A DNA stretch of 32,491 bases from Gemmatimonadota bacterium (lineage in GTDB: Bacteria > Latescibacterota > UBA2968), in NCBI GenBank assembly GCA_026706845.1, contig JAPOXY010000043.1:1-32491 (forward strand), in the 5' to 3' direction. The position numbers and the translations under genes were made by a program. The notes beneath the pieces were generated by a model that made no database searches, had not been told where the DNA came from, and saw only the letters and a list, made by a program, of their open reading frames with translations. Below are positions 19,070 to 31,405 of this stretch, one piece after another (within the stretch, counting starts at the first letter, position 1; each line of letters opens with the position of its first letter).

Positions 19070-19846
19070 TCACTTGATCGGCACCGACAGGGAAACTTGA
19101 GCTGGCCCGATCACCAGATGATCCAATACACTGGATAACCAGACCGCCGCGAGCAGGCCCAGGACGAGATTGGCCCGCCCCGCACGAGATTCCACGCGTT
19201 CAAAATTTTGGGTAAACGCATCGGAATCCGTACCTGCTATGGGTTGACCCAGTTGCAAATCACTCAGACGCGTACCGCGATAGGTATTATATGCACTGCG
19301 ATAGGATATATCGGTCGCAAACCAGGCCGCAGCGAGCACTGCTGAAGCCCCTATAAAGACATACCCTCGTTTTTTGTGTCCGCGGTACAATTGCCCCCAG
19401 CCCGGCAGGAGAAACGAGCGACCAGTAGCACCCCAAAAGGTCGTTCCCTTAAGGGTTTGCCGCAGCGTTTTGCGGCGCATGCCCAAAAGTAGTGCTCGCG
19501 TATCTGCAAATGCTCGATCTGGAGGAATGTCCATAATTCCCTTGTTGGTTTCTGGATCCAGGTGAAATGTCTCGACAAGTGCCAGACGGGCACGAATCGT
19601 ATCGCCAGAAGCCAGGTGAATGCGCCCCAGATCAAAAAAGATCTCGGCTCTCCGACTCTGCTGCGGTCTGTCCAGGAAAGGCACCACGCCCAACAAGCTC
19701 GGAAGATGAGAGAGCGTCTCAAATGCGCTGGCGTAATCACCTGCGCGATAGGCGGCCTGCGCTTTTTCAATAATTTCCTGGTCATTCGCCCATGCCGAAC
19801 CCATCGCCAGACAAAACAACACCCAGATCAATAGACTACGGTACAT
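19070..19846 (-). CDS. Membrane protein with TPR-like N-terminus and DUF5683-like C-terminal region
   Basis: 258 aa from ATG 19846, which has GGAGGGG 9 nt upstream; the frame is open to 19870 but that start lacks an SD. Signal peptide: LLIWVLFCLAMGSAWA (about residues 4-20). A TPR-like helical pair (AQAAYRAGDYASAFETLSHL; EIFFDLGRIHLASGDTIRARLAL) precedes a glycine-rich SFLLPGWGQLYRGHKKRGY motif and a hydrophobic helix (VFIGASAVLAAAWFA), then a second helix near the C-terminus (LVLGLLAAVWLSSVLDHLVI). The PGWGQLYRG motif plus helices is the DUF5683 pattern of FCB-group envelope proteins. It overlaps the upstream lipoprotein gene by 11 nt and precedes the GWxTD gene by 12 nt, implying a three-gene operon. 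Confidence 0.82.
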   Translation of the reverse strand: MYRSLLIWVLFCLAMGSAWANDQEIIEKAQAAYRAGDYASAFETLSHLPSLLGVVPFLDRPQQSRRAEIFFDLGRIHLASGDTIRARLALVETFHLDPETNKGIMDIPPDRAFADTRALLLGMRRKTLRQTLKGTTFWGATGRSFLLPGWGQLYRGHKKRGYVFIGASAVLAAAWFATDISYRSAYNTYRGTRLSDLQLGQPIAGTDSDAFTQNFERVESRAGRANLVLGLLAAVWLSSVLDHLVIGPAQVSLSVPIK

Positions 19847-21374
19847 ATGTTGTGACCCCTCCACTTTCATCTGAAAGATGGACGAAATTTCTGGCTGATC
19901 CGCCGATAGTTAGATCACCTGCTGAGAATGCGTCCGAAGGCAGTGCCCATGAGAGAAGAGGTGTCCCATCTGCCTGAAATACGCGCACCTGCGTGTGATC
20001 CAATACAAAAACCTGCCCCGCGGTATTGAGCGTTAAAGCACACGGCTCGATCTGAGGATGTGGCACATCCCAGGTGATATCACTGAGGACCTCGTTCGAA
20101 AAGCGCAAAACCCCTCGTTGTACTCGATTTGCCCAGGCAGCCCAGATAATACCATTGTGAACTGCGATATCTACGGGATCTTCTTCGAGATTGAAAGTGC
20201 CCACAGGAGAACCCGCAGCAGAATAGACGCGCAACTGCCGACCTGTCGCAATATAAATCCGCTGTTTATCGTCCTGAGCCAGCCGTACCTGCGAAGATGT
20301 GCTCATCCAATTGTCGGGAATACGCCACACCGTGTTATTATTCATCAGTTCGATACCCACTACTACAACGCGCCCGGCCCGATCCAGACCGCCGATATAA
20401 GCGCGTTGAAAAGCCCCCTGCCCCGCAAGCGAAGGACCAGCCAGATCCACCGATTGCGGCACGAGGTCGTTCAATCGCGGAAAAGAAGTCCCGACGAGGT
20501 GGCGCGATAGCGTATTGGAAATATCGACACTCAGGGTATGCCGCAGGCGAGAAAGCAAAATCTGGTTGGGGCGAACAATCAGAGCGAGCATATCGGCTTC
20601 ACCATCGGAATCAGCTGCTGAAAGTCTCATCCGCTCGTTCGCCCCGCTTAGAGTTTCTACGATATGTCGCCCCACTTCGCGATAAAATTGCACGCGCACG
20701 CTGCGACTTGTGAGCCGCACATCCGTCGAAAGGGGAGATCTTGAGACACGCATAGACCTTATGGCATAAGTATAAGAGCGGTTGTCGGAAATCGACCGAT
20801 CCCAAAATGAGGTCTGTGCACGGCTTTGTATGACGGCAAGAATTTTTTTATCACCACCTTCAGGCATCCGCAGAATTTCATAACTTCTTGCCGTGTTTCC
20901 CTCATCATGCCAGACGAGTTGCACGGCAAGATCAATAGGATCGCGTCGCACTTCGCGCAAACCAGCACCCGGGATAGGAACTTCAACAGCAGAAGTACTC
21001 ACCAGGCCACCCTCGCTATGTTCGGCAACCACGCGGTATTGCAGGCTTTCGCCAGCAATCAGCTTTTGGTCTCGAAACGCACCCACAGTCGCGTATCTGC
21101 TATTGGCATCGGCACCGGAAGAAAGCTCGATATTTCTAAAACCGAAAATATCTCGACGCTGGAGGACAAAGTTCTCAACGCGCTTCTGTCCGAGATACTC
21201 CCACTGCACAGTGACCACTCCCCATGTGTTCTCCTCAACCTTATAGGAGGCATCGAGAATGTGGATGAGCGGTGTATTGTATGGGTCTATGCTCAGATCG
21301 CGTTGGGGGTTATAACATCCGATCAGAAGGCCCATAGCACACATAAATAGCAAATGAGAGAAGCGGTTTCCCAT
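19836..21374 (-). CDS. Lipoprotein with fibronectin-III-like and beta-propeller-like regions
   Basis: 512 aa. The lipoprotein signal ends at Cys20 (MGLLIGC). Residues about 40-235 have fibronectin-III-like patterns (VTVQWEYLG...VENFVLQRRD; SLQYRVVAEHSEGG; VQLVWHDEGN..SYEILRMPEGG). The C-terminal half has repeats such as RIYIATGRQLRVYSAAGSPVGTF and GQVFVLDHTQVRVFQADGTPL, which resemble NHL/YVTN-type propeller blades. It is probably attached to the outer membrane or periplasmic face. It heads the long minus-strand run; GGTG lies 4 nt before the ATG. The 180 bp to the divergent tonB-like gene must hold promoters for both, but I could not define a convincing -10/-35 pair. Confidence 0.85.
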   Translation of the reverse strand: MGNRFSHLLFMCAMGLLIGCYNPQRDLSIDPYNTPLIHILDASYKVEENTWGVVTVQWEYLGQKRVENFVLQRRDIFGFRNIELSSGADANSRYATVGAFRDQKLIAGESLQYRVVAEHSEGGLVSTSAVEVPIPGAGLREVRRDPIDLAVQLVWHDEGNTARSYEILRMPEGGDKKILAVIQSRAQTSFWDRSISDNRSYTYAIRSMRVSRSPLSTDVRLTSRSVRVQFYREVGRHIVETLSGANERMRLSAADSDGEADMLALIVRPNQILLSRLRHTLSVDISNTLSRHLVGTSFPRLNDLVPQSVDLAGPSLAGQGAFQRAYIGGLDRAGRVVVVGIELMNNNTVWRIPDNWMSTSSQVRLAQDDKQRIYIATGRQLRVYSAAGSPVGTFNLEEDPVDIAVHNGIIWAAWANRVQRGVLRFSNEVLSDITWDVPHPQIEPCALTLNTAGQVFVLDHTQVRVFQADGTPLLSWALPSDAFSAGDLTIGGSARNFVHLSDESGGVTTYVP

Positions 21375-21554
21375 TTTTTCACCACGAGAAAGGGGATCAT
21401 TGATTAACGGACTTCAATATATTGATATGAAGCCTGAATAAACAAGTAATTTGTCAAATCGGGGCTTGTAAAAACACCTTGCCTTTCGTTCACAGTGGTA
21501 TTAAAATCATAAATAGTGGTTAGCTGCCCACCATTCTTTCTGCTGAGAAGAACC

Positions 21555-22241
21555 ATGAATAAAAAATTAGATCCGTGGATTACGCCTGAAATCCCGCGTA
21601 CTAAAAATCCAGCCTGTGATCTCAAACGCACGTACAAGCACGCATTTCGCATCAGCATGGTGATTGCATTCATCTTGCATGTGGGCATGGGGCTTATGTT
21701 TCCCACATTCACAGCCGGTACTCGCAAAATAGAGCGGCGCACCATCGTCATTGAGACCGTCGATATACCGGAAACCCGTCAGATTCACCGCGCGCCGCCA
21801 CCGCCACGGCCGTCTATTCCGATTGCAACCGAAAGCGAGGATGTTCCCGACGACGTTACTATTGAAACTACCGACCTCGATTTCGACAAGGTCGATCTCC
21901 ATGTGCCCCCACCCCCTGTTGAGACCGCAGCAATAGAGGAACCTGAAGAAGAGATACTCGAATATTTCATGGTTGAAGAAAAACCCGTACTCATCCATCG
22001 TGTAGCACCTGTATATCCCCCAGTCGCTCTCAAGGCGGGTATTGAAGGCACTATTCATTTGAAAATACTGGTTGACAAAGCCGGAATAGTCGAACAGGCC
22101 CAGGCTGTCAAAGGCAAAGAAATTTTTCACAAAGCAGCCCTTCGGGCCGTTAATCAATACCGCTTTAAGCCAGCCCGTCAAAATGATAGACCTGTTAAAG
22201 TCTATCTCGTCATACCCATACGTTTCCGAATTACTAACTAA
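21555..22241 (+). CDS. TonB-like energy transducer
   Basis: 228 aa. A short cytoplasmic N-terminus is followed by one membrane anchor (about residues 32-50, ISMVIAFILHVGMGLMFP). A periplasmic proline/acid-rich spacer (RAPPPPRPSIP ... HVPPPPVE) comes next, then the TonB C-terminal domain (about 145-228) with YPPVALKAGIEGTIHLKI and AALRAVNQYRFKPARQ, the standard signature. TonB couples the proton-motive force, through ExbB/ExbD, to outer-membrane receptors. No exbB, exbD or receptor is present here, so partners must be elsewhere. I place the start at ATG 21555 (GAGAAG a few nt upstream) rather than 21516, which would add a stretch with no TonB character. Confidence 0.9.
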   Translation: MNKKLDPWITPEIPRTKNPACDLKRTYKHAFRISMVIAFILHVGMGLMFPTFTAGTRKIERRTIVIETVDIPETRQIHRAPPPPRPSIPIATESEDVPDDVTIETTDLDFDKVDLHVPPPPVETAAIEEPEEEILEYFMVEEKPVLIHRVAPVYPPVALKAGIEGTIHLKILVDKAGIVEQAQAVKGKEIFHKAALRAVNQYRFKPARQNDRPVKVYLVIPIRFRITN

Positions 22242-22252
22242 TTTACGAACAT

Positions 22253-22297
22253 AAATAACCAACCCCCCGACAAGTTTATCGGGGGGTTGGTTATTTT
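22253..22297. terminator. Strong bidirectional terminator between tonB-like and parA-like genes
   Basis: A perfect 18-bp stem (left arm aaataaccaaccccccga) with an 8-nt loop sits between the convergent gene ends. T-rich outer arms serve both strands. Confidence 0.93.
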
Positions 22298-22320: not shown

Positions 22321-23064
22321 TCATCCAAGCATTTGCAATTCTGTCCACAATTCCCGATACGCCTGAGTTGCCTTTGAACGCGGCTTGAAGCATGCCACGG
22401 GTTGTCTCGCCAAGCCCATCCTTTCCACATCTGTCGTGTAAGGAATTTGCGCGTTCAGAAATTTTTCCTTGCGCTCGCCCACCTGTGCGATCATTTCCCT
22501 GTGTATTGTCTTGCGCTGCTCAACCATTGAAAAAAACGACACCATTTTTCTGCGCTTCAAACCATTTTTGTTAAAAAAATCTATTAATTTTTGATGCGTT
22601 AACATCGACAGAGTTGTCGGAATACACGGAACCACCACATAATCAGCCGCTCGGAAAACATGCTCGGCAAGGAGCGTCAGGTTGGGCGGGCAGTCTAAAA
22701 AAATATAATCGTACTCTTTCCTCATCGGCGTCAACAGACGTTTCAAATAGCTTTTCTTCTTCGCCCGCTCGTCCACCAACCCCAAATCCAGATTGCGAAA
22801 AGACATGGCCGAAGGTAATAAGTCCAGACCTTCAAAGTCCGTCCCCCGAATATTATTCTTTAAATGCTTGCCGCCCTTCAAGAAACGCTTGCGTCCAAAC
22901 TTTTTTTTTGCGCGAATGCGAAAATAAAAAGCCGCAGCTCCCTGTGGGTCTAAATCGCACAGCAATGCAGTCGCCCCAGAACGAACCGCTTCATAGGCCA
23001 GATTCACAGCTGCGGCGGTTTTCCCCACGCCACCTTTCATGCTGTACAACGCAAAGATGCTCAC
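22321..23064 (-). CDS. ParA/MinD-family ATPase
   Basis: 247 aa. The deviant Walker A KGGVGKT (residues 10-16), with its signature lysine, and the LCDLDPQGAA and FLDCPPN segments place it in the ParA/Soj/McdA class of dimerising, DNA-associated positioning ATPases. The start is GTG with GAGGAG 5 nt upstream. There is no parB, no parS-like array and no replication gene nearby, so it is an orphan ParA rather than the chromosome segregation pair. It is the last gene after CYTH and CYTH-CHAD genes (22 bp from the latter), which suggests the cargo is something CHAD proteins bind, namely polyphosphate granules. The middle has an unusual lysine-rich stretch (RAKKKFGRKRFLKGGKHLK) that could bind DNA or polyanions. 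Confidence 0.93.
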   Translation of the reverse strand: MSIFALYSMKGGVGKTAAAVNLAYEAVRSGATALLCDLDPQGAAAFYFRIRAKKKFGRKRFLKGGKHLKNNIRGTDFEGLDLLPSAMSFRNLDLGLVDERAKKKSYLKRLLTPMRKEYDYIFLDCPPNLTLLAEHVFRAADYVVVPCIPTTLSMLTHQKLIDFFNKNGLKRRKMVSFFSMVEQRKTIHREMIAQVGERKEKFLNAQIPYTTDVERMGLARQPVACFKPRSKATQAYRELWTELQMLG

Positions 23065-23086
23065 ACCCGCTCCTCAATGAGATTTA

Positions 23087-24613
23087 CTATCCAAATAAAT
23101 CGCGGTACAAACGGACATTTTTTTTTCCCGCATAAACGGCAAATGCACTGGCAAATTCGCGTCTAACAGCTTGCTGCTGGTCGTGCAAACGCGCAATAAG
23201 CCCGCCAATAGCCGCGGCACAAAGCAGGCGGTCTGCACGCCGGCTGCGGGGCAACACCTCGTTTAAATAGGTCGTCAATTCCTGTTGTTGTACCGATAAA
23301 TCGTTAAAATCTCCCAGATTATCCTGCAACTTCTTCATATACCCGATGAGTTTATCCATCTTGTTTTTGGGAAAAAAAGAGGCAAAAAATTCTAACAAAT
23401 ATCGCAATTTCTTGCAGTCGATTCGCAAATTGTGCAATGCCTCATCGGGCGTATCTTCACCAATCGCCTTGCCCCTTTTGAGCACTTGCTTAAAGCGTTT
23501 AAAAATAAATTTTCGCGCAAGGGCTATAGCAGGTACAGCAGAGTCCTTCCCCCCCCGAGACTCTTCGCCCTGAAAAAAAGTCGCCCATGAATCCATCAAG
23601 TCCAGATATTCGGGTTTATCGAGGACCTGCACCATGTCGCTAAGGGCGCGCCGCCGCTCGCTTTTTAAGCGCGAAAACACAGCGTCCAGACCGGGTTGTA
23701 GCGACCGGGGCAACATCGCGCGATAAGTCTCTTCATCGAGCAAATACACATCCAGATCGCGCAACCGATTGGTCGATCTGCCCAGTTGCCGAAACGCATC
23801 CTTAAAATGTGCTACAGCATCTTCGGGCAAAACGCCTTTGATTTGACTCAGCGCCGACCGCGTGCGCCGAATCGCAACCCGAAAATCGTGCAGAAATTCC
23901 GTATCCCAATCCGCGCGAATGCCCGTTTCATTCTGGCGCATCACATCGTGCAGGCATCTCAAAATCTCACATGTTGCTTCACGTCCGCTCGCTTCGTGAT
24001 TCAGGTCGAGATTCAGCTTTGAAGAATAATCGCCCGGCACGCACCCTGCGAGATCCATCACGCGTTCAAATACATCTTCTGCCACAGGCGCAACATCCAA
24101 TTTTCGGAAACGACGGCGTAAATTCTCAAAATCGCGCTCATATCCCCGCACGCTTCGGCAAGTCAAAGTCGCAACGCGTCCATTTTCTGTGCTGGTATGC
24201 GTAATAAATAGCCGAACAACCGTCTTTTCATCTGCATTTAAAACGCCAAATCCGCAAACCTTCTGCCTCACCTGCGCCCGAAGTAACAGCGCTCGAACTG
24301 AGAGCGCGCCCCGTAGTGTGTCGCGTAACTCGCCTTCTGGAAACATCCACCAGAAGCGGCCTTCCAGATGTTGTTTCATTTCGATCTGATTGTGTAAAGG
24401 GTGTTCACCATCTGAAATGCGCTGTAAATACACCGCATTTCCCGCTTGTATCAGCGCAAGTCCCTTTTGATACAAGCGCCAGTCAAACGTGTCGAAATAT
24501 TGCACCGTGTTCTCAACCTCAGATACAGGCAGCAGGCGCTCAGGCGCGAGTTGTTCGACCACATCCCATCCATGTGGTTCACTCAAAATATAAGTTTCAC
24601 TGCGCGTGATCAT
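23087..24613 (-). CDS. CHAD-domain protein with N-terminal CYTH-like region
   Basis: 508 aa from ATG 24613 (AAGGGG about 7 nt upstream; 17-nt overlap with the CYTH gene). Residues 1 to about 200 look like a decayed CYTH/triphosphate-tunnel barrel: TVQYFDTFDWRLYQKGLAL mimics the family's substrate-strand region, but no intact ExExK is visible at the start (SETYIL instead). Residues about 225-505 form the CHAD domain with its two conserved histidine helices, HDFRVAIRRTR (about 240) and HNLRIDCKKLRYLLEFF (about 391), rich in surface Arg/Lys. CHAD domains bind inorganic polyphosphate and localise to polyphosphate granules (established for several bacteria). Together with the neighbours this suggests polyphosphate binding or metabolism. 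Confidence 0.9.
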   Translation of the reverse strand: MITRSETYILSEPHGWDVVEQLAPERLLPVSEVENTVQYFDTFDWRLYQKGLALIQAGNAVYLQRISDGEHPLHNQIEMKQHLEGRFWWMFPEGELRDTLRGALSVRALLLRAQVRQKVCGFGVLNADEKTVVRLFITHTSTENGRVATLTCRSVRGYERDFENLRRRFRKLDVAPVAEDVFERVMDLAGCVPGDYSSKLNLDLNHEASGREATCEILRCLHDVMRQNETGIRADWDTEFLHDFRVAIRRTRSALSQIKGVLPEDAVAHFKDAFRQLGRSTNRLRDLDVYLLDEETYRAMLPRSLQPGLDAVFSRLKSERRRALSDMVQVLDKPEYLDLMDSWATFFQGEESRGGKDSAVPAIALARKFIFKRFKQVLKRGKAIGEDTPDEALHNLRIDCKKLRYLLEFFASFFPKNKMDKLIGYMKKLQDNLGDFNDLSVQQQELTTYLNEVLPRSRRADRLLCAAAIGGLIARLHDQQQAVRREFASAFAVYAGKKNVRLYRDLFG

Positions 24614-25073
24614 CGGGCGTCCCCTTATTTGCGAGGATTGCATTTTTGTAACGGTCATCATCGGTCACCTCTCGGCCAAACCAGAGCGGTGGGACAAATC
24701 GGGAACTTTCATCTATGGTCTCAAATTCGACTTCGGCTACTATCAAGCCCTTCAAGTGGCCGCGGTACACATCCAGTTCAATTGTCCATATCCCTTCGGC
24801 TATCTCATAACGAACTTTTTCGACTCGCCTACCCTCAGTTAAAGGCCAGAGGTTATCAAATTGCGCCTGGCTCAATTCCACCTCGACTTCCGTCCGTTGC
24901 ACACCCTTCCCAATTTTTACTGTCTGATAAAATCGCTCGCCGTTGCGACGCAGCCGAATCTCAGGGTCATTCTCACCTACCGAGAGATAGCCCTGTGAGA
25001 TTTCTACTCCTGTACAGGCCGTCAGATCCGGCATTTTTCGCACGCAAAACTTCCGTTCAATTTCTTTTATCAT
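24597..25073 (-). CDS. CYTH-domain inorganic triphosphatase-like protein
   Basis: 158 aa, the size of the small bacterial triphosphate-tunnel metalloenzymes. The defining ExExK motif is intact right at the N-terminus (EIERKF, E4-I-E6-R-K8). The usual later strands follow: EIRLRRNGERFYQTVK, RTEVEVELS, a VEKVRYEI strand, and the C-terminal AEVEFETIDES..FVPPLWFGREVTDD with a DxRYxN end. These features match the class whose members hydrolyse inorganic tripolyphosphate, although adenylate cyclase and thiamine triphosphatase share the fold. I place the start at ATG 25073 because ExExK must be N-terminal; the open frame continues to 25172 across the promoter. The SD is weak. It is the first gene of the CYTH-CHAD-ParA cluster. 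Confidence 0.92.
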   Translation of the reverse strand: MIKEIERKFCVRKMPDLTACTGVEISQGYLSVGENDPEIRLRRNGERFYQTVKIGKGVQRTEVEVELSQAQFDNLWPLTEGRRVEKVRYEIAEGIWTIELDVYRGHLKGLIVAEVEFETIDESSRFVPPLWFGREVTDDDRYKNAILANKGTPDDHAQ

Positions 25074-25118
25074 AACAAAACGCGAGTTCCCAGATGTGAA
25101 AAGCAGGACAGGACGCTT

Positions 25119-25140
25119 TATTCCCGGTAATCGGGGAATA
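25119..25140. promoter_or_regulatory. 22-bp palindrome at the predicted transcription start of the CYTH operon
   Basis: tattccc and gggaata flank an 8-nt centre. On the minus strand it begins a few nt after the -10 element, so it covers about +1 to +20. It could be a repressor operator or a 5'-leader hairpin. Confidence 0.55.
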
Positions 25141-26938: not shown

Positions 26939-27598
26939 CTAACCGTTTTTGCCGTATTGGCTTTCCACGCCTCTGTTGTGAAACGCGTACCAATCGTCAT
27001 CGGTCAGATATTTTGGTTCGCCAAGCTGACGGGAAAGCACGTATTGTCGGCACATGATTTCCAGACGATGGGCCTGGTTGACAGCGCGTTTTAAGGTTGG
27101 TCCGTGGCAGACCATGCCGTGGTTTCCGAGGAGACACGCGGTGCGGTCATAGAGCGCTTCGGATGCGTCTTCGGCAAGCGATTGGCCGCCAAATGTGGAA
27201 TAAGGGACACAGGGCACATCGTTACCGCCAAACACACCCATGAGGTAGTGAAAGCCCGGTAGAGTCATCACATGGCACGATACCGCAACGCAGTAATCGG
27301 AGTGGGTGTGAACCACTGCTCCGGCTTCGGGGTGCTTTTTATAGATGGCACCATGCATGGGCGATTCCGAAGAGGGTTTGCAGTCGCCTGCATACTCACC
27401 GTCGAAGGTGGCTTTGACAATCGTTTCTATGGTAATATTATCTGCGGTTGCACGGTTGGGAGAGATGAGCATTTTGTCGCCAAATCGGACGCTCAGATTG
27501 CCAGAGGACATTTCGTTTAAGCCAAGCTCTCCAACTTTTTTATAATAAAAAACCAATTGCTCGCGTAAGGCCATTTCATAAACGGGATCATCTTCCAT
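26939..27598 (-). CDS. otnC: Class II aldolase/adducin family, probable 3-oxo-tetronate 4-phosphate decarboxylase
   Basis: 219 aa from ATG 27598 (AAGGA 6 nt upstream); the open frame to 27676 overlaps the kinase gene and is rejected. Zinc-binding histidines are in HTHSDY (near 97 and 99) and GNHGMV (near 158). The catalytic-type glutamate is in KPSSESPMHG, and the phosphate-binding SSGNLSVRFGDKMLISP is near residue 30. The family includes fuculose- and ribulose-phosphate enzymes. Because it directly follows a DUF1537 kinase by 10 nt, the OtnK-OtnC pair of the D-threonate/L-threonate/erythronate pathways, where it converts 3-oxo-tetronate 4-phosphate to dihydroxyacetone phosphate plus CO2, is the best assignment. 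Symbol by context. Confidence 0.82.
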   Translation of the reverse strand: MEDDPVYEMALREQLVFYYKKVGELGLNEMSSGNLSVRFGDKMLISPNRATADNITIETIVKATFDGEYAGDCKPSSESPMHGAIYKKHPEAGAVVHTHSDYCVAVSCHVMTLPGFHYLMGVFGGNDVPCVPYSTFGGQSLAEDASEALYDRTACLLGNHGMVCHGPTLKRAVNQAHRLEIMCRQYVLSRQLGEPKYLTDDDWYAFHNRGVESQYGKNG

Positions 27599-27608
27599 AT
27601 GTATTCCT

Positions 27609-28877
27609 TCATTGGTTTTTGTCTGCTTCACGCATCTGCTCCAGGGCAGTATGAATAAAGTTATCTTCACCAACACCGCCCGCTTTCAGTACCAACGACA
27701 ATGGATCGCTCCCTGCACTATGACAATAACCACCGTTGAGAACGTCGAATGTCGCCACCGAAACTTGCACTATACCTAAAGATGCCATGACGGCCCCTGA
27801 TGTTTCTCCCCCCATCACAACAAATTTACGTACACCGTGCTGATAGAAATGCTGGACAACACTGGACAGAAGCTTATCGGCAAGTGTTGCAGCGCCTTCG
27901 CGCCCGAGCTCTGCCTGGGCTCTTTTTACGCCTTCAGAATCCGTTGAGGTACCCACACCTACAGGCCCTTTTTCTAATCGGTCTTTTGCCCATTCGACAA
28001 TGCGGTCAACCATGTTGGCGTCTTGAGCTGCTTCTAAAAGGTCAATGCGAAACACCGGATGCGTTTGCTCGAAATGCGCAAGTTGCCGGACTGATTTTCC
28101 CGTGCAACTCCCAGAAATAACGGCTTCATAACCAGGTGCAGGCGGCAGTAATGTTTTCGGTTGGCTCTTTTTGTCCCTCTGCCAGTTGCGCGCAAGCATC
28201 ACCGGGAGTAGATCTGCGCCAGTGCTCAATGGCAAATCCTTGGACAGTGTTGCCAATTGCTCAAGATTCGACTCATCAATCACGTCGACAATAAAAAACT
28301 TTACGCCCAGGGCCTTCTGCTCTGAAATGTAGTTCTCGCAAGCGTCTGTTCCTGACGCCACAATTTGATATGGCAAAAGACCAACCTTGACCTGACTTTG
28401 TTTCTGTAGTACTTCAACAAGATTGGAATTGGTCATCGGTGTTACAGGATCATTGCGTCTCGGTGATTCGTGTAGCATGATTGACCCGAGAAACAACCGC
28501 CCTTGATAGATTGTTGTGTTTTTCCAGATGGGACAAAAAAATACGTGGTCGGCCTGGGTCAAGTCCATCAACGTTTCTGCCACAGGCCCGATATTGCCAC
28601 GTGCTGTAGATGAAAAGAGCGCACTGTATTTGTAGTATATCTGTCTCGTACCTTTGGCGAGCAGAGCTTCAGCCGTGCGTTTTGCATCGGCACGGGCATC
28701 GTCAGGGGGTTGGATCAGGAGTTTTCGTCCAACGACCACAGCTTGTGCATCGTCGTCGAGTGTATTGAGTGCATCGCCAGATGTTACCAGTGGACAACGC
28801 ACGCCTTCTCTTTCGAGCAAACTCGCGACCATCATCCCACCTGTGAGATCATCTGCGATTACACCAAGTTCAAGCAT
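27609..28877 (-). CDS. otnK: Four-carbon acid sugar kinase (DUF1537, OtnK/DtnK type)
   Basis: 422 aa from ATG 28877, with GGAG about 9 nt upstream and an 8-nt overlap with the PhyH gene. The N-terminal motif GVIADDLTGGMMVA is the hallmark of DUF1537 kinases (usually DDxTGA). A central YKYSALFSSTARGNIG segment and a C-terminal nucleotide-binding VGTSTDSEGVK and VMGGETSGAV complete the two-domain pattern. Family members phosphorylate D-threonate, D-erythronate or 3-oxo-tetronates. No dedicated DtnA-type PdxA dehydrogenase is adjacent. The pairing with an OtnC-type gene suggests the 3-oxo-tetronate kinase branch. The longer open frame to 29291 lies over PhyH and is a shadow. Confidence 0.88.
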   Translation of the reverse strand: MLELGVIADDLTGGMMVASLLEREGVRCPLVTSGDALNTLDDDAQAVVVGRKLLIQPPDDARADAKRTAEALLAKGTRQIYYKYSALFSSTARGNIGPVAETLMDLTQADHVFFCPIWKNTTIYQGRLFLGSIMLHESPRRNDPVTPMTNSNLVEVLQKQSQVKVGLLPYQIVASGTDACENYISEQKALGVKFFIVDVIDESNLEQLATLSKDLPLSTGADLLPVMLARNWQRDKKSQPKTLLPPAPGYEAVISGSCTGKSVRQLAHFEQTHPVFRIDLLEAAQDANMVDRIVEWAKDRLEKGPVGVGTSTDSEGVKRAQAELGREGAATLADKLLSSVVQHFYQHGVRKFVVMGGETSGAVMASLGIVQVSVATFDVLNGGYCHSAGSDPLSLVLKAGGVGEDNFIHTALEQMREADKNQ

Positions 28878-30015
28878 CGCTTTTATCTCCCGAATTTTGT
28901 GCCTCAGCAACGACTTCCTGCATGCCATCCCACTCACTCCAGGGATCACACAGTTTATCGATAGAAATTTGCCATGGATCATAACCTTCGGGATAGTCGA
29001 GAAATTCGCCTTCCCAACCGCGGTCGGGGTGATCGCTGTCTCCTCGCACTTTGGCACCACCGGGACGATGGCGACGCAATCGAAAGTAGGCACTGATGCG
29101 TGGGTCTGCGCCCAAATCGTTGCGGGTACCGCAATGAGGAATACCGTGAACCGAAATAAAGGCATCGCCTTCTTCAGCGAGCACAGGGGTAGGCTCAGGC
29201 CACATAAGGCCATCAGGTGTGAACTGCGCGCCCTCACGATAATGATTGGCGATCCATTCTGGAAGCGTATTGATACCAACACCCTTGTCACCCACGTGCT
29301 TCAAACGTGGCCAACCATGGCCTTCAGGGCCGATGACGCCACCTTGGTCGCGTTGCCGCCTGAAGAATTCAGCCGTGTGATGATGGGCACCCCGAAGGAC
29401 GGCAAAGTTGCCATAGCCAAATTTGGATTGATCGCTGAGGACAACAACGGCAAAGCATGTAAAACTGCCGAGGGAGAGCGTGCAATCTGGATTCTGAAAC
29501 AAAGGCGTACCGTTTACCCCGAGCACGTTGGCACTGCGATCTCCAAAGTGTGGCGTTTTGGGCACATGCCAATCGTCCACTTCGTCCGCTGTTTTGGGAA
29601 TGGCTCCAGACCACTGGCCATCAATGTGCGGGAAGAAGGCGTGATTGGGCACTTCATCGTCGGGCAGACCGTGGTTGCCGATTTCTCTGGATGGCTCGCG
29701 CGGATACAGGACCGGTGAAAAGCCGTGTGTCGGAGGATCGAATGGCCCCATCGTGTTGGTGAGGATGTCGGTCAGCGCTGTTTTATTAATGAGGTCTGTG
29801 ATGGCATCTTCACAGCCGACATAACGGTTTCTTCTTTTGGGCGGATCCATTGTGCCGTTCAGGATTTTACCTGCGGTGATGTTGACCAGCCGCCGGGCAC
29901 GTTGGGTCAGCTCTTTGGGCACGATGTTTTTGAGGATAATGTACCCATCTCGATAGAAAGCGCGTTTTTGCTCGAGGGTGAGTTCGGTTGGACCGTCTGA
30001 GCGTGTGTGTTTCAT
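28870..30015 (-). CDS. Phytanoyl-CoA dioxygenase (PhyH) family protein
   Basis: 381 aa, longer than the usual 270-310. An Fe(II)/2-oxoglutarate oxygenase with the N-terminal LTLEQKRAFYRDGYIILKNI segment typical of PhyH. The iron ligands are His and Asp in PHIDGQW (about 129 and 131) and the distal His in VHGIPHCGTRN (about 289-293), with an Arg-rich YFRLRRHR that would bind 2-oxoglutarate. ATG 30015 follows AAAGAGG by 6 nt. PhyH proteins act on many small molecules besides phytanoyl-CoA, so the substrate is unknown. It sits between a sulfatase-like gene (34 bp) and the kinase gene, suggesting it removes or modifies a group before the four-carbon acid is phosphorylated. Confidence 0.9.
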   Translation of the reverse strand: MKHTRSDGPTELTLEQKRAFYRDGYIILKNIVPKELTQRARRLVNITAGKILNGTMDPPKRRNRYVGCEDAITDLINKTALTDILTNTMGPFDPPTHGFSPVLYPREPSREIGNHGLPDDEVPNHAFFPHIDGQWSGAIPKTADEVDDWHVPKTPHFGDRSANVLGVNGTPLFQNPDCTLSLGSFTCFAVVVLSDQSKFGYGNFAVLRGAHHHTAEFFRRQRDQGGVIGPEGHGWPRLKHVGDKGVGINTLPEWIANHYREGAQFTPDGLMWPEPTPVLAEEGDAFISVHGIPHCGTRNDLGADPRISAYFRLRRHRPGGAKVRGDSDHPDRGWEGEFLDYPEGYDPWQISIDKLCDPWSEWDGMQEVVAEAQNSGDKSDA

Positions 30016-30049: not shown

Positions 30050-31405
30050 CTAGGGCATTCTATTGCGAAAGGATTCCACCATTTCGGGAGGCCCACCATT
30101 CTGACCGATGAAGTTAAGAAATGCGTCGTAGAGTCTTCGAACTTCATCGGCGCTCGAGTCGAACCGATTCTCGTTTTGACCTGGATCGGAAGGCAGATGG
30201 TAAAGCTTGTTGGGCGGACCCTGGTTCTCGAGCAGAAGCGTCCATTCGCCGTCAGTTACCTGGCCCTGGGGATTGCCACCATCGGGACTCCAGCCGCCGA
30301 CCCACGCGCCATGCGTGATGGCGTAATCGTGATTTTGGTCGCCGCCATCCAACACGATGGGCAAAAGGGAATTGCCCTCAACCGGCCCAGAATGCTCCGT
30401 GTTGAAGACGTCCAGAATGGTCGGTGGAATATCGATGATGCTGGTTAATGCCGGCGTTCTCCTGGGCGTGGCTTCTGGATAATAGATCATCAGCGGAATG
30501 TGAGCGACTTCCTCATACATATCAAAGTTCTTCGCCACCAGACCATGCTCACCCAGAAGAAATCCATGATCGGCCATGAAGATAATCATGGTCGAATCCA
30601 TCAGTCCCATATTATCTATTTTCTTCAACAGGTGACCAATCCACGTGTCGACGAGGCAGGCTTCTGCACGGTAAAGCACTTCTGCTCGCTTTGTGGTCTT
30701 CTCGTCCATTGGATTCGATCCGTAAGGCGGATAGATGGGTTCAGGACCCTCGTAGTCTTCCTCCTGGAATCGCCGAACGTACCAATCCGGCGGATCCCAG
30801 GGCTCATGTGGATCGAACGTGTCGACCATAAGATAAAAGCTTTCATGCTGGTAGTTCTGCTCCAACCATCGTGTTGCGCTGCGCATTGTCGTGGCGACAA
30901 ATGTATCTTCCTCTTTCTGCCGAAAGGCCGTGTTTCTCAAATGATTGGCCAATCCCAGCGGAAGTTGCTCGGGATGGGTCCGCGTATGTGTACGAAAGCG
31001 TCTTGCGGCATCTCCATCGTAGTCAAAGGGCTGAGTCCTCAAATGATCGGACTCTTGACCTCGAATCCATTCCCATCCTGTGAACCCCCGATTATAGTTG
31101 AACCCGTTATTAAGATGATGAGGTGTATCTGCAATCATCATGGATACGACACCCGCATCTGAAAGCGAATCTGCTATTACGGGAATGTCCCGCTTGAGCG
31201 GTTCCCAGCCTCTCCTGCACATACCAACCTGGCCAGTGACCAGTTCACCTCGAATGGGTACGGTGGGAAAACTGCACACGTAGGCACGGTCGAACAGGAC
31301 GCATTTCTCGGCAAAAGCATCGAGAAACGGTGCGTGGCCTCTTCCCCCGAATACTTTCAGATTATCGCGTCTAAATGTGTCTGATATGATGTGTATAACG
31401 TTCAT
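30050..31405 (-). CDS. Sulfatase-family hydrolase with Thr at the formylglycine position
   Basis: 451 aa, alkaline phosphatase/sulfatase superfamily. The N-terminus NVIHIISDTFRRDNL replaces the usual DD pair with DT. The nucleophile motif, canonically (C/S)xPxR followed by xxxxTG, here reads TVPIRGELVTG, so Thr48 (codon ACC) occupies the place of the Cys/Ser that is converted to formylglycine. The rest is ordinary: VDTFDPHEPWDPP, the late metal-binding ADHGFLLGEHGLVAK, and a C-terminal NKLYHLPSDPGQNENRF. There is no signal peptide, so it is probably cytoplasmic. With Thr it may work like a phosphodiesterase or phosphonate hydrolase of the superfamily rather than a formylglycine sulfatase. The SD before ATG 31405 is weak. 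Confidence 0.88.
   Translation of the reverse strand: MNVIHIISDTFRRDNLKVFGGRGHAPFLDAFAEKCVLFDRAYVCSFPTVPIRGELVTGQVGMCRRGWEPLKRDIPVIADSLSDAGVVSMMIADTPHHLNNGFNYNRGFTGWEWIRGQESDHLRTQPFDYDGDAARRFRTHTRTHPEQLPLGLANHLRNTAFRQKEEDTFVATTMRSATRWLEQNYQHESFYLMVDTFDPHEPWDPPDWYVRRFQEEDYEGPEPIYPPYGSNPMDEKTTKRAEVLYRAEACLVDTWIGHLLKKIDNMGLMDSTMIIFMADHGFLLGEHGLVAKNFDMYEEVAHIPLMIYYPEATPRRTPALTSIIDIPPTILDVFNTEHSGPVEGNSLLPIVLDGGDQNHDYAITHGAWVGGWSPDGGNPQGQVTDGEWTLLLENQGPPNKLYHLPSDPGQNENRFDSSADEVRRLYDAFLNFIGQNGGPPEMVESFRNRMP

Follow-up and report, generated by a model that had tools for sequence, protein, structure and literature searches.

A strongly basic ParA subfamily co-inherited with one kind of CHAD protein and almost certainly linked to polyphosphate

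Three adjacent minus-strand genes, encoding a CYTH-domain protein, a CHAD protein and a ParA-family ATPase, have been analyzed in the window, a 32.5-kb stretch that constitutes one whole contig (C43; JAPOXY010000043.1) of the 5.46-Mb, 279-contig assembly of a Gemmatimonadota bacterium. Judging by ParA (89–93% identity), its closest named relatives are almost all Candidatus Latescibacterota, with one assigned to Gemmatimonadota. The start of the CYTH gene (24597–25073) is best placed at ATG 25073, not near 25140. The longest reading of the CHAD gene is 23087–24661, while the conserved start is ATG 24613, yielding the gene at 23087–24613, and parA (22321–23064) starts with GTG. Given these conserved starts, the CHAD gene overlaps the CYTH gene by 17 nt and is separated from parA by 22 nt, in agreement with the gene layout of the original prediction. 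Directly 3' of parA, the operon is closed by a 45-nt perfect hairpin (22253–22297; 20-bp stem, T-rich flanks, –36.5 kcal/mol, z –7.0) resembling a bidirectional terminator, and hence CYTH, CHAD and parA look like one transcription unit. Chance arrangement is excluded, as the order CYTH-CHAD-ParA is found in all ten genomes of the same genus that have CHAD.

The CYTH protein (Pfam CYTH, 2e-7) is a triphosphate tunnel metalloenzyme (TTM) of the NeuTTM type. Its closest solved match, over the full length, is NeuTTM from Nitrosomonas europaea (2fbl/3typ, E ~1e-37), a specific tripolyphosphatase with a described Tyr28/Lys52 dyad (PMC3440374). The ExExK motif is kept (MIKEIERKF); EIERK, Y29 and K53 are invariant in eight relatives, and the latter two residues align with the dyad. 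The intact ExExK described in the original prediction is confirmed.

The CHAD protein (Pfam CHAD, 1.6e-61) contains a CHAD domain at 23276–23959 (–), scoring 211.7 bits with PF05235 against a curated cut-off of 25.6. Foldseek comparison with 6qva, the Chlorobium tepidum CHAD solved with bound polyphosphate, yields a template-modeling score (TM-score) of 0.95 on the target, at 42% identity. For structure prediction with AlphaFold2 we used 29 diverse sequences, as with only nine close CHADs the N-terminal domain was unreliable (predicted local distance difference test, pLDDT, 55); the resulting model has pLDDT 90 and predicted TM-score 0.88. Its N-terminal domain (approximately residues 1–200, 24014–24613, –) has the CYTH/TTM fold, with YgiF and thiamine triphosphatases among the Foldseek matches, and the ExExK motif is absent from the first strand of this domain in 29 ParA-linked CHADs. 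Beyond the CHAD domain, the model ends in a C-terminal helix (23087–23230, –), a candidate site of contact with ParA. Among 26 held-out ParA-linked CHADs from Bacteroidota, the helix is present in 25 and the dead CYTH domain in 24, compared to none of 15 ParA-less CHADs from Latescibacterota for either feature. The ParA-linked CHAD is a distinct, recognizable form, combining a dead CYTH fold, a polyphosphate-pore CHAD domain and a C-terminal helix. It resembles Escherichia coli YgiF and stand-alone CHAD phosins in the succession of the CYTH fold and CHAD and in the polyphosphate binding predicted for it; however, the CYTH domain of YgiF is active and no ParA accompanies it, whereas here this domain is dead, the protein is extended by the C-terminal helix, and the intact ExExK resides in a separately encoded CYTH enzyme.

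The ParA protein (AAA_31, 2.2e-33; approximately 407 bits with the subfamily profile) has the Walker A motif KGGVGKT at residues 10–16, its KGG.GK core being invariant in 54 members of what we describe below as a CHAD-linked subfamily. The deviant Walker A motif KGGxxK[S/T] with a signature lysine defines ParA/MinD ATPases (PMC9178275). Walker A' (DLDPQG) and Walker B (YDYIFLDCPP) are conserved as well, so all Walker motifs are intact, and 33 alignment columns are invariant in the subfamily across lineages. Comparison of the 54 subfamily proteins with 29 ordinary ParAs demonstrates that the Walker lysines, the aspartates and R184 are common to both sets, while Y47, R49, R90, E134, P149/L152/S153, F177, K185, H188, E214, M216-G217, R220 and W240 are private to the subfamily. 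R184, which we take to lie in the presumed DNA-binding region, is conserved at 94%, and in the subfamily other residues take the place of the PRN motif of ordinary ParAs. In the tree, subfamily members form one clade apart from ordinary ParAs, on a long branch with node support 0.60; plasmid sequences were left out of one 32-row alignment.

The two sets also differ in charge. The mean net charge of residues 44–75 (approximately; 22840–22935, –) is +6.7 in the subfamily versus –2.9 in ordinary ParAs, and that of the whole protein, +10.4 versus –5.3. This stretch had been described as a Lys-rich insert, which we reject, since its length is unchanged (32.0 residues versus 32.9); it is a charge-swapped segment. 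Its basic character could allow for direct binding of polyphosphate by ParA. Taken further, ParA itself would be the polyphosphate receptor, with polyphosphate and DNA competing for it and CHAD acting as a co-receptor instead of an adaptor. The charge shift, seen in the segment and in the whole protein across the subfamily, is what such a role would predict; still, a basic face could bind DNA instead, and the charge of the segment varies widely within the subfamily, from 0 to +12, so that we regard this explanation as improbable.

Searches with the ParA profile (A4, then A5) separate the subfamily clearly. In a survey of 386 genomes, 22 score 237–504 bits and the next ones at most 130; among 51 genomes from the phylum of G176, ten score 284–388 bits and the rest at most 153. 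Further subfamily members were found in 19 of 396 sampled genomes from the phylum of G148 and in 87 of 395 from Bacteroidota. Overall, 137 of the sampled genomes, belonging to several phyla, contain the subfamily, with scores of at least 198 bits against approximately 150 at most for ordinary ParAs. The phyla identified by name are Latescibacterota, Bacteroidota and Pseudomonadota, the last one via named plasmids. No relatives were found by the ParA profile search in viral contigs.

CHAD is located directly upstream of the subfamily ParA in 116 of the 137 genomes (72 out of 87 in Bacteroidota and 44 out of 50 outside it), and beside none of 28 ordinary ParA loci. Hence, the adjacency of ParA and CHAD without ParB, which was to be looked for in related genomes, turns out to be conserved far beyond near relatives. 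Within the order of the window genome, 15 genomes have both CHAD and the subfamily ParA and six have neither (G009, G011–G014, G019), these losses not being independent events; in the second family of the order (five genomes), the CHAD-ParA pair is retained and CYTH is absent. In Latescibacterota that are more distant but belong to the same class, CHADs are of other kinds and no ParA adjoins them. The CHAD and ParA trees correlate with r 0.84 (37 pairs), or 0.73 if Latescibacterota are excluded, a level reached in none of 2000 permutations. In the 21 genomes where the two genes are unlinked, a full strong CHAD is encoded elsewhere in 12, a fragment at a contig end is seen in one, a weak short CHAD in three, and none in five. 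The last five genomes would fit CHAD and ParA being merely co-inherited neighbors without a joint function. We find this hardly credible, given that gene order and close spacing are maintained between remote relatives, the joint loss within the order, and the strong CHAD retained by 12 of the unlinked genomes.

Several observations concern deviating members. The lone subfamily ParAs of genomes that lack CHAD or have just a weak short CHAD, namely Bacteroidota G924, G1133, G1216, G850, G959 and G983 (L228–L233), G368 (L092) and G1087 (L234), adjoin unrelated genes, such as uvrB, an esterase, a chromate transporter and others. In G048 from another class of the phylum (L055, 5897–8279, –), a SixA-like phosphatase, CHAD and a more distant ParA occur together; with just 23% identity to the ParA of the window, this ParA was not counted in the subfamily, and the grouping perhaps arose independently or is an older version of the CHAD-ParA association. 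The CHAD frame in G020 (L014/L045) is interrupted by TAG, and the ParA frame in G017 (L012/L043), by TAA, possibly due to decay or assembly errors.

No ParB gene is present at the CYTH-CHAD-ParA locus (parS was not searched for). In the window genome (G000) and two complete relatives (G007, G008), a full ParB is encoded approximately 110–125 nt from another, ordinary ParA; it is the only full ParB in each of the complete genomes, other ParB-like matches being short helix-turn-helix fragments below the cut-off. Further relatives likewise have their full ParB next to the other ParA. The subfamily ParA as the chromosomal partner of ParB was therefore rejected, and no ParB belongs to this ParA, in line with its original description as an orphan. 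The operon ParA shares the deviant Walker A ATPase fold with ParABS systems (Soj/Spo0J), and its best solved relatives are Soj/ParA proteins; it differs from them in lacking an adjoining ParB, as well as in the subfamily residues and charge, the chromosomal ParAB being encoded elsewhere. Some subfamily members are plasmid-borne (Paracoccus), and by similarity these proteins are annotated as involved in chromosome segregation, as one would expect of an ordinary ParA for chromosome or plasmid partition lying beside CHAD by accident. This is very unlikely: ParB is not alongside and has its own ParA in the genome, and the subfamily forms its own clade, has residues of its own and keeps its place beside CHAD across phyla.

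The genomic context repeatedly includes genes of polyphosphate metabolism. The operon SixA-CHAD-ParA-PPX-PPX-PPK1 is observed in the phylum of G176 and, in the same form, in G300; CHAD-ParA-PPK1 in G272; and PPK1-CHAD-ParA in two Bacteroidota. In four out of five genomes of the second family of the order, PPK1 is the next gene after CHAD-ParA. Outside Bacteroidota, PPK1 or PPX is found within approximately 6 kb of the subfamily ParA in 19 out of 50 genomes, and in G798 and G494, where ParA and CHAD are unlinked, PPX and PPK1 accompany the CHAD gene at its distant site. Genomes of the window's own genus do have PPK1, but away from the operon. Named plasmids of Paracoccus marcusii and P. aestuarii (L191, L196) carry CHAD-ParA-CYTH-NUDIX, so the CYTH/CHAD/ParA triad recurs in Alphaproteobacteria in a different gene order. 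The plasmid annotation gives ParA no name other than AAA family ATPase, and the hosts, being culturable Alphaproteobacteria, are a convenient test system. Marinobacter nauticus VT8 plasmid pMAQU02 (L195, 3998–4744) encodes a subfamily ParA (272 bits) beside polyhydroxybutyrate genes (phbB) and without CHAD; this protein could serve another storage granule.

As far as genome comparison goes, these data show a distinct, strongly basic ParA subfamily that lacks ParB and is co-inherited with one kind of CHAD, often also with PPK1 or PPX. On the same grounds, it is all but certain that ParA and CHAD belong with polyphosphate and that the subfamily is a polyphosphate-linked one. The interpretation offered by the original prediction has become stronger in this respect, with the conserved ParA-CHAD pair, the lack of ParB, and PPK1, PPX or SixA in the same operon, while its description of an insert has been dropped.

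As to the function, it seems rather probable from gene content and conservation that ParA positions or segregates polyphosphate granules, with the CHAD protein as an adaptor. The operon would then encode a granule-handling system, with organization of the granules being the task of a dedicated ParA-type ATPase. CHADs bind polyphosphate and granules, as shown for homologs (PMC6537752, PMC9239181), and ParA/MinD ATPases place their cargo via a cargo-bound partner (PMC10241942; for the positioning role see also PMC13052382). Since its closest solved homolog (6qva) binds polyphosphate, the CHAD protein is expected to coat the granules through its pore domain. ATP-bound ParA dimers would reside on the nucleoid and/or, via the basic segment, on the granule surface; contact with the CHAD protein, probably with its C-terminal helix or dead CYTH domain, would stimulate ATP hydrolysis by ParA. 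This would result in spacing of granules along the nucleoid and their sharing between daughter cells, as provided by McdA for carboxysomes, while the separate CYTH enzyme would clear tripolyphosphate left by chain degradation. Chances are about even for a more general statement, that the widespread subfamily, characterized by the basic segment and by a CHAD partner whose CYTH domain is dead and which carries the C-terminal helix, is a dedicated polyphosphate-granule positioning or segregation ATPase, operating without ParB or the usual N-terminal activator peptide, and possibly with polyphosphate as a ligand competing with DNA.

Some observations weigh against positioning, and the weak point of the model is the contact between ParA and CHAD. 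Known ParA/MinD partners contact the ATPase via a positively charged, disordered N-terminus (PMC10241942). The CHAD protein has none: the mean net charge of its first 15 residues is just +0.3, and the modeled strand begins at residue 2. The CHAD N-terminus as a classical ParA-activating peptide was thus rejected, and with this peptide missing, the contact would need to be made by another part of the protein, either the dead CYTH domain or the C-terminal helix. Binding of ParA to the nucleoid is not assured, given the replaced PRN motif and one conserved arginine (R184). Finally, five genomes have the subfamily ParA with no CHAD at all, and three, with only a weak short one.

The main rival is a regulatory role without movement over the nucleoid, with ParA as a regulator or assembly ATPase of a polyphosphate synthesis and degradation complex (CHAD, PPK1, PPX), setting where or when the polymer is made, or the number and size of granules. 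The location of ParA within PPK1/PPX operons, the altered PRN motif and the lack of a canonical partner peptide agree with such a role. On the other hand, most known ParA/MinD relatives are positioning proteins, none of the Walker motifs has been lost, and the constant partner is the granule-binding CHAD, whereas PPK1 is often unlinked; on balance, we consider regulation without movement rather unlikely.

With positioning as the preferred function, a close parallel is McdAB, which also has a ParA-type ATPase without ParB beside a cargo-associated protein and, as proposed here for granules, provides even spacing over the nucleoid. The differences are the Walker A motif, SGGQGKT in McdA (PMC9178275) and KGGVGKT here, the partner (CHAD) and cargo (polyphosphate), and the lack of a disordered, charged N-terminal partner peptide; no McdB-like gene was recognized in the operon by Pfam matches of its three proteins. 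Granules are also spaced by nucleoid attachment in the case of AlgP (polyphosphate) and PhaM-type proteins (polyhydroxybutyrate), but AlgP is a histone-like DNA-binding protein and not an ATPase (PMC9239181, PMC13052382). By published gene order, the same neighbors occur in Acidithiobacillus, where the folD-ppk-parA-CHAD locus, with parA between ppk and CYTH-CHAD, is reported to be conserved; only plasmid partition has been proposed for this parA, and CYTH-CHAD has been discussed in relation to copper resistance or cyclic AMP (PMC10892726, PMC6416229).

In open-access full texts on ParA and polyphosphate granules, phosins or CHAD, we found no study assigning a ParA to polyphosphate; subscription papers and preprints were outside this search, and priority is unproven. 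A 2025 review of organelle positioning names no ATPase for polyphosphate granules, describes the responsible Caulobacter proteins as unidentified, and leaves open whether granule placement uses energy (PMC13052382). The locus offers a concrete pair of an ATPase and a putative adaptor with a searchable signature, occurring also in culturable bacteria such as Paracoccus and, judging from the gene order in the literature, Acidithiobacillus. If the positioning role is true, ParA-type ATPases have one more cargo, a widespread storage body, and a function is found for a whole class of "orphan" ParAs annotated as chromosome segregation proteins.

The surroundings of the operon comprise, downstream of parA, genes encoding a TonB-family protein (21516–22241, +) and a 512-amino acid protein without a Pfam match (19836–21374, –), a neighborhood kept across the genus. 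On the upstream side, there are genes of sugar-acid catabolism (class II aldolase, 3-oxo-tetronate kinase-like) and a sulfatase gene, at 26939–29291 (–) and 30050–31405 (–).

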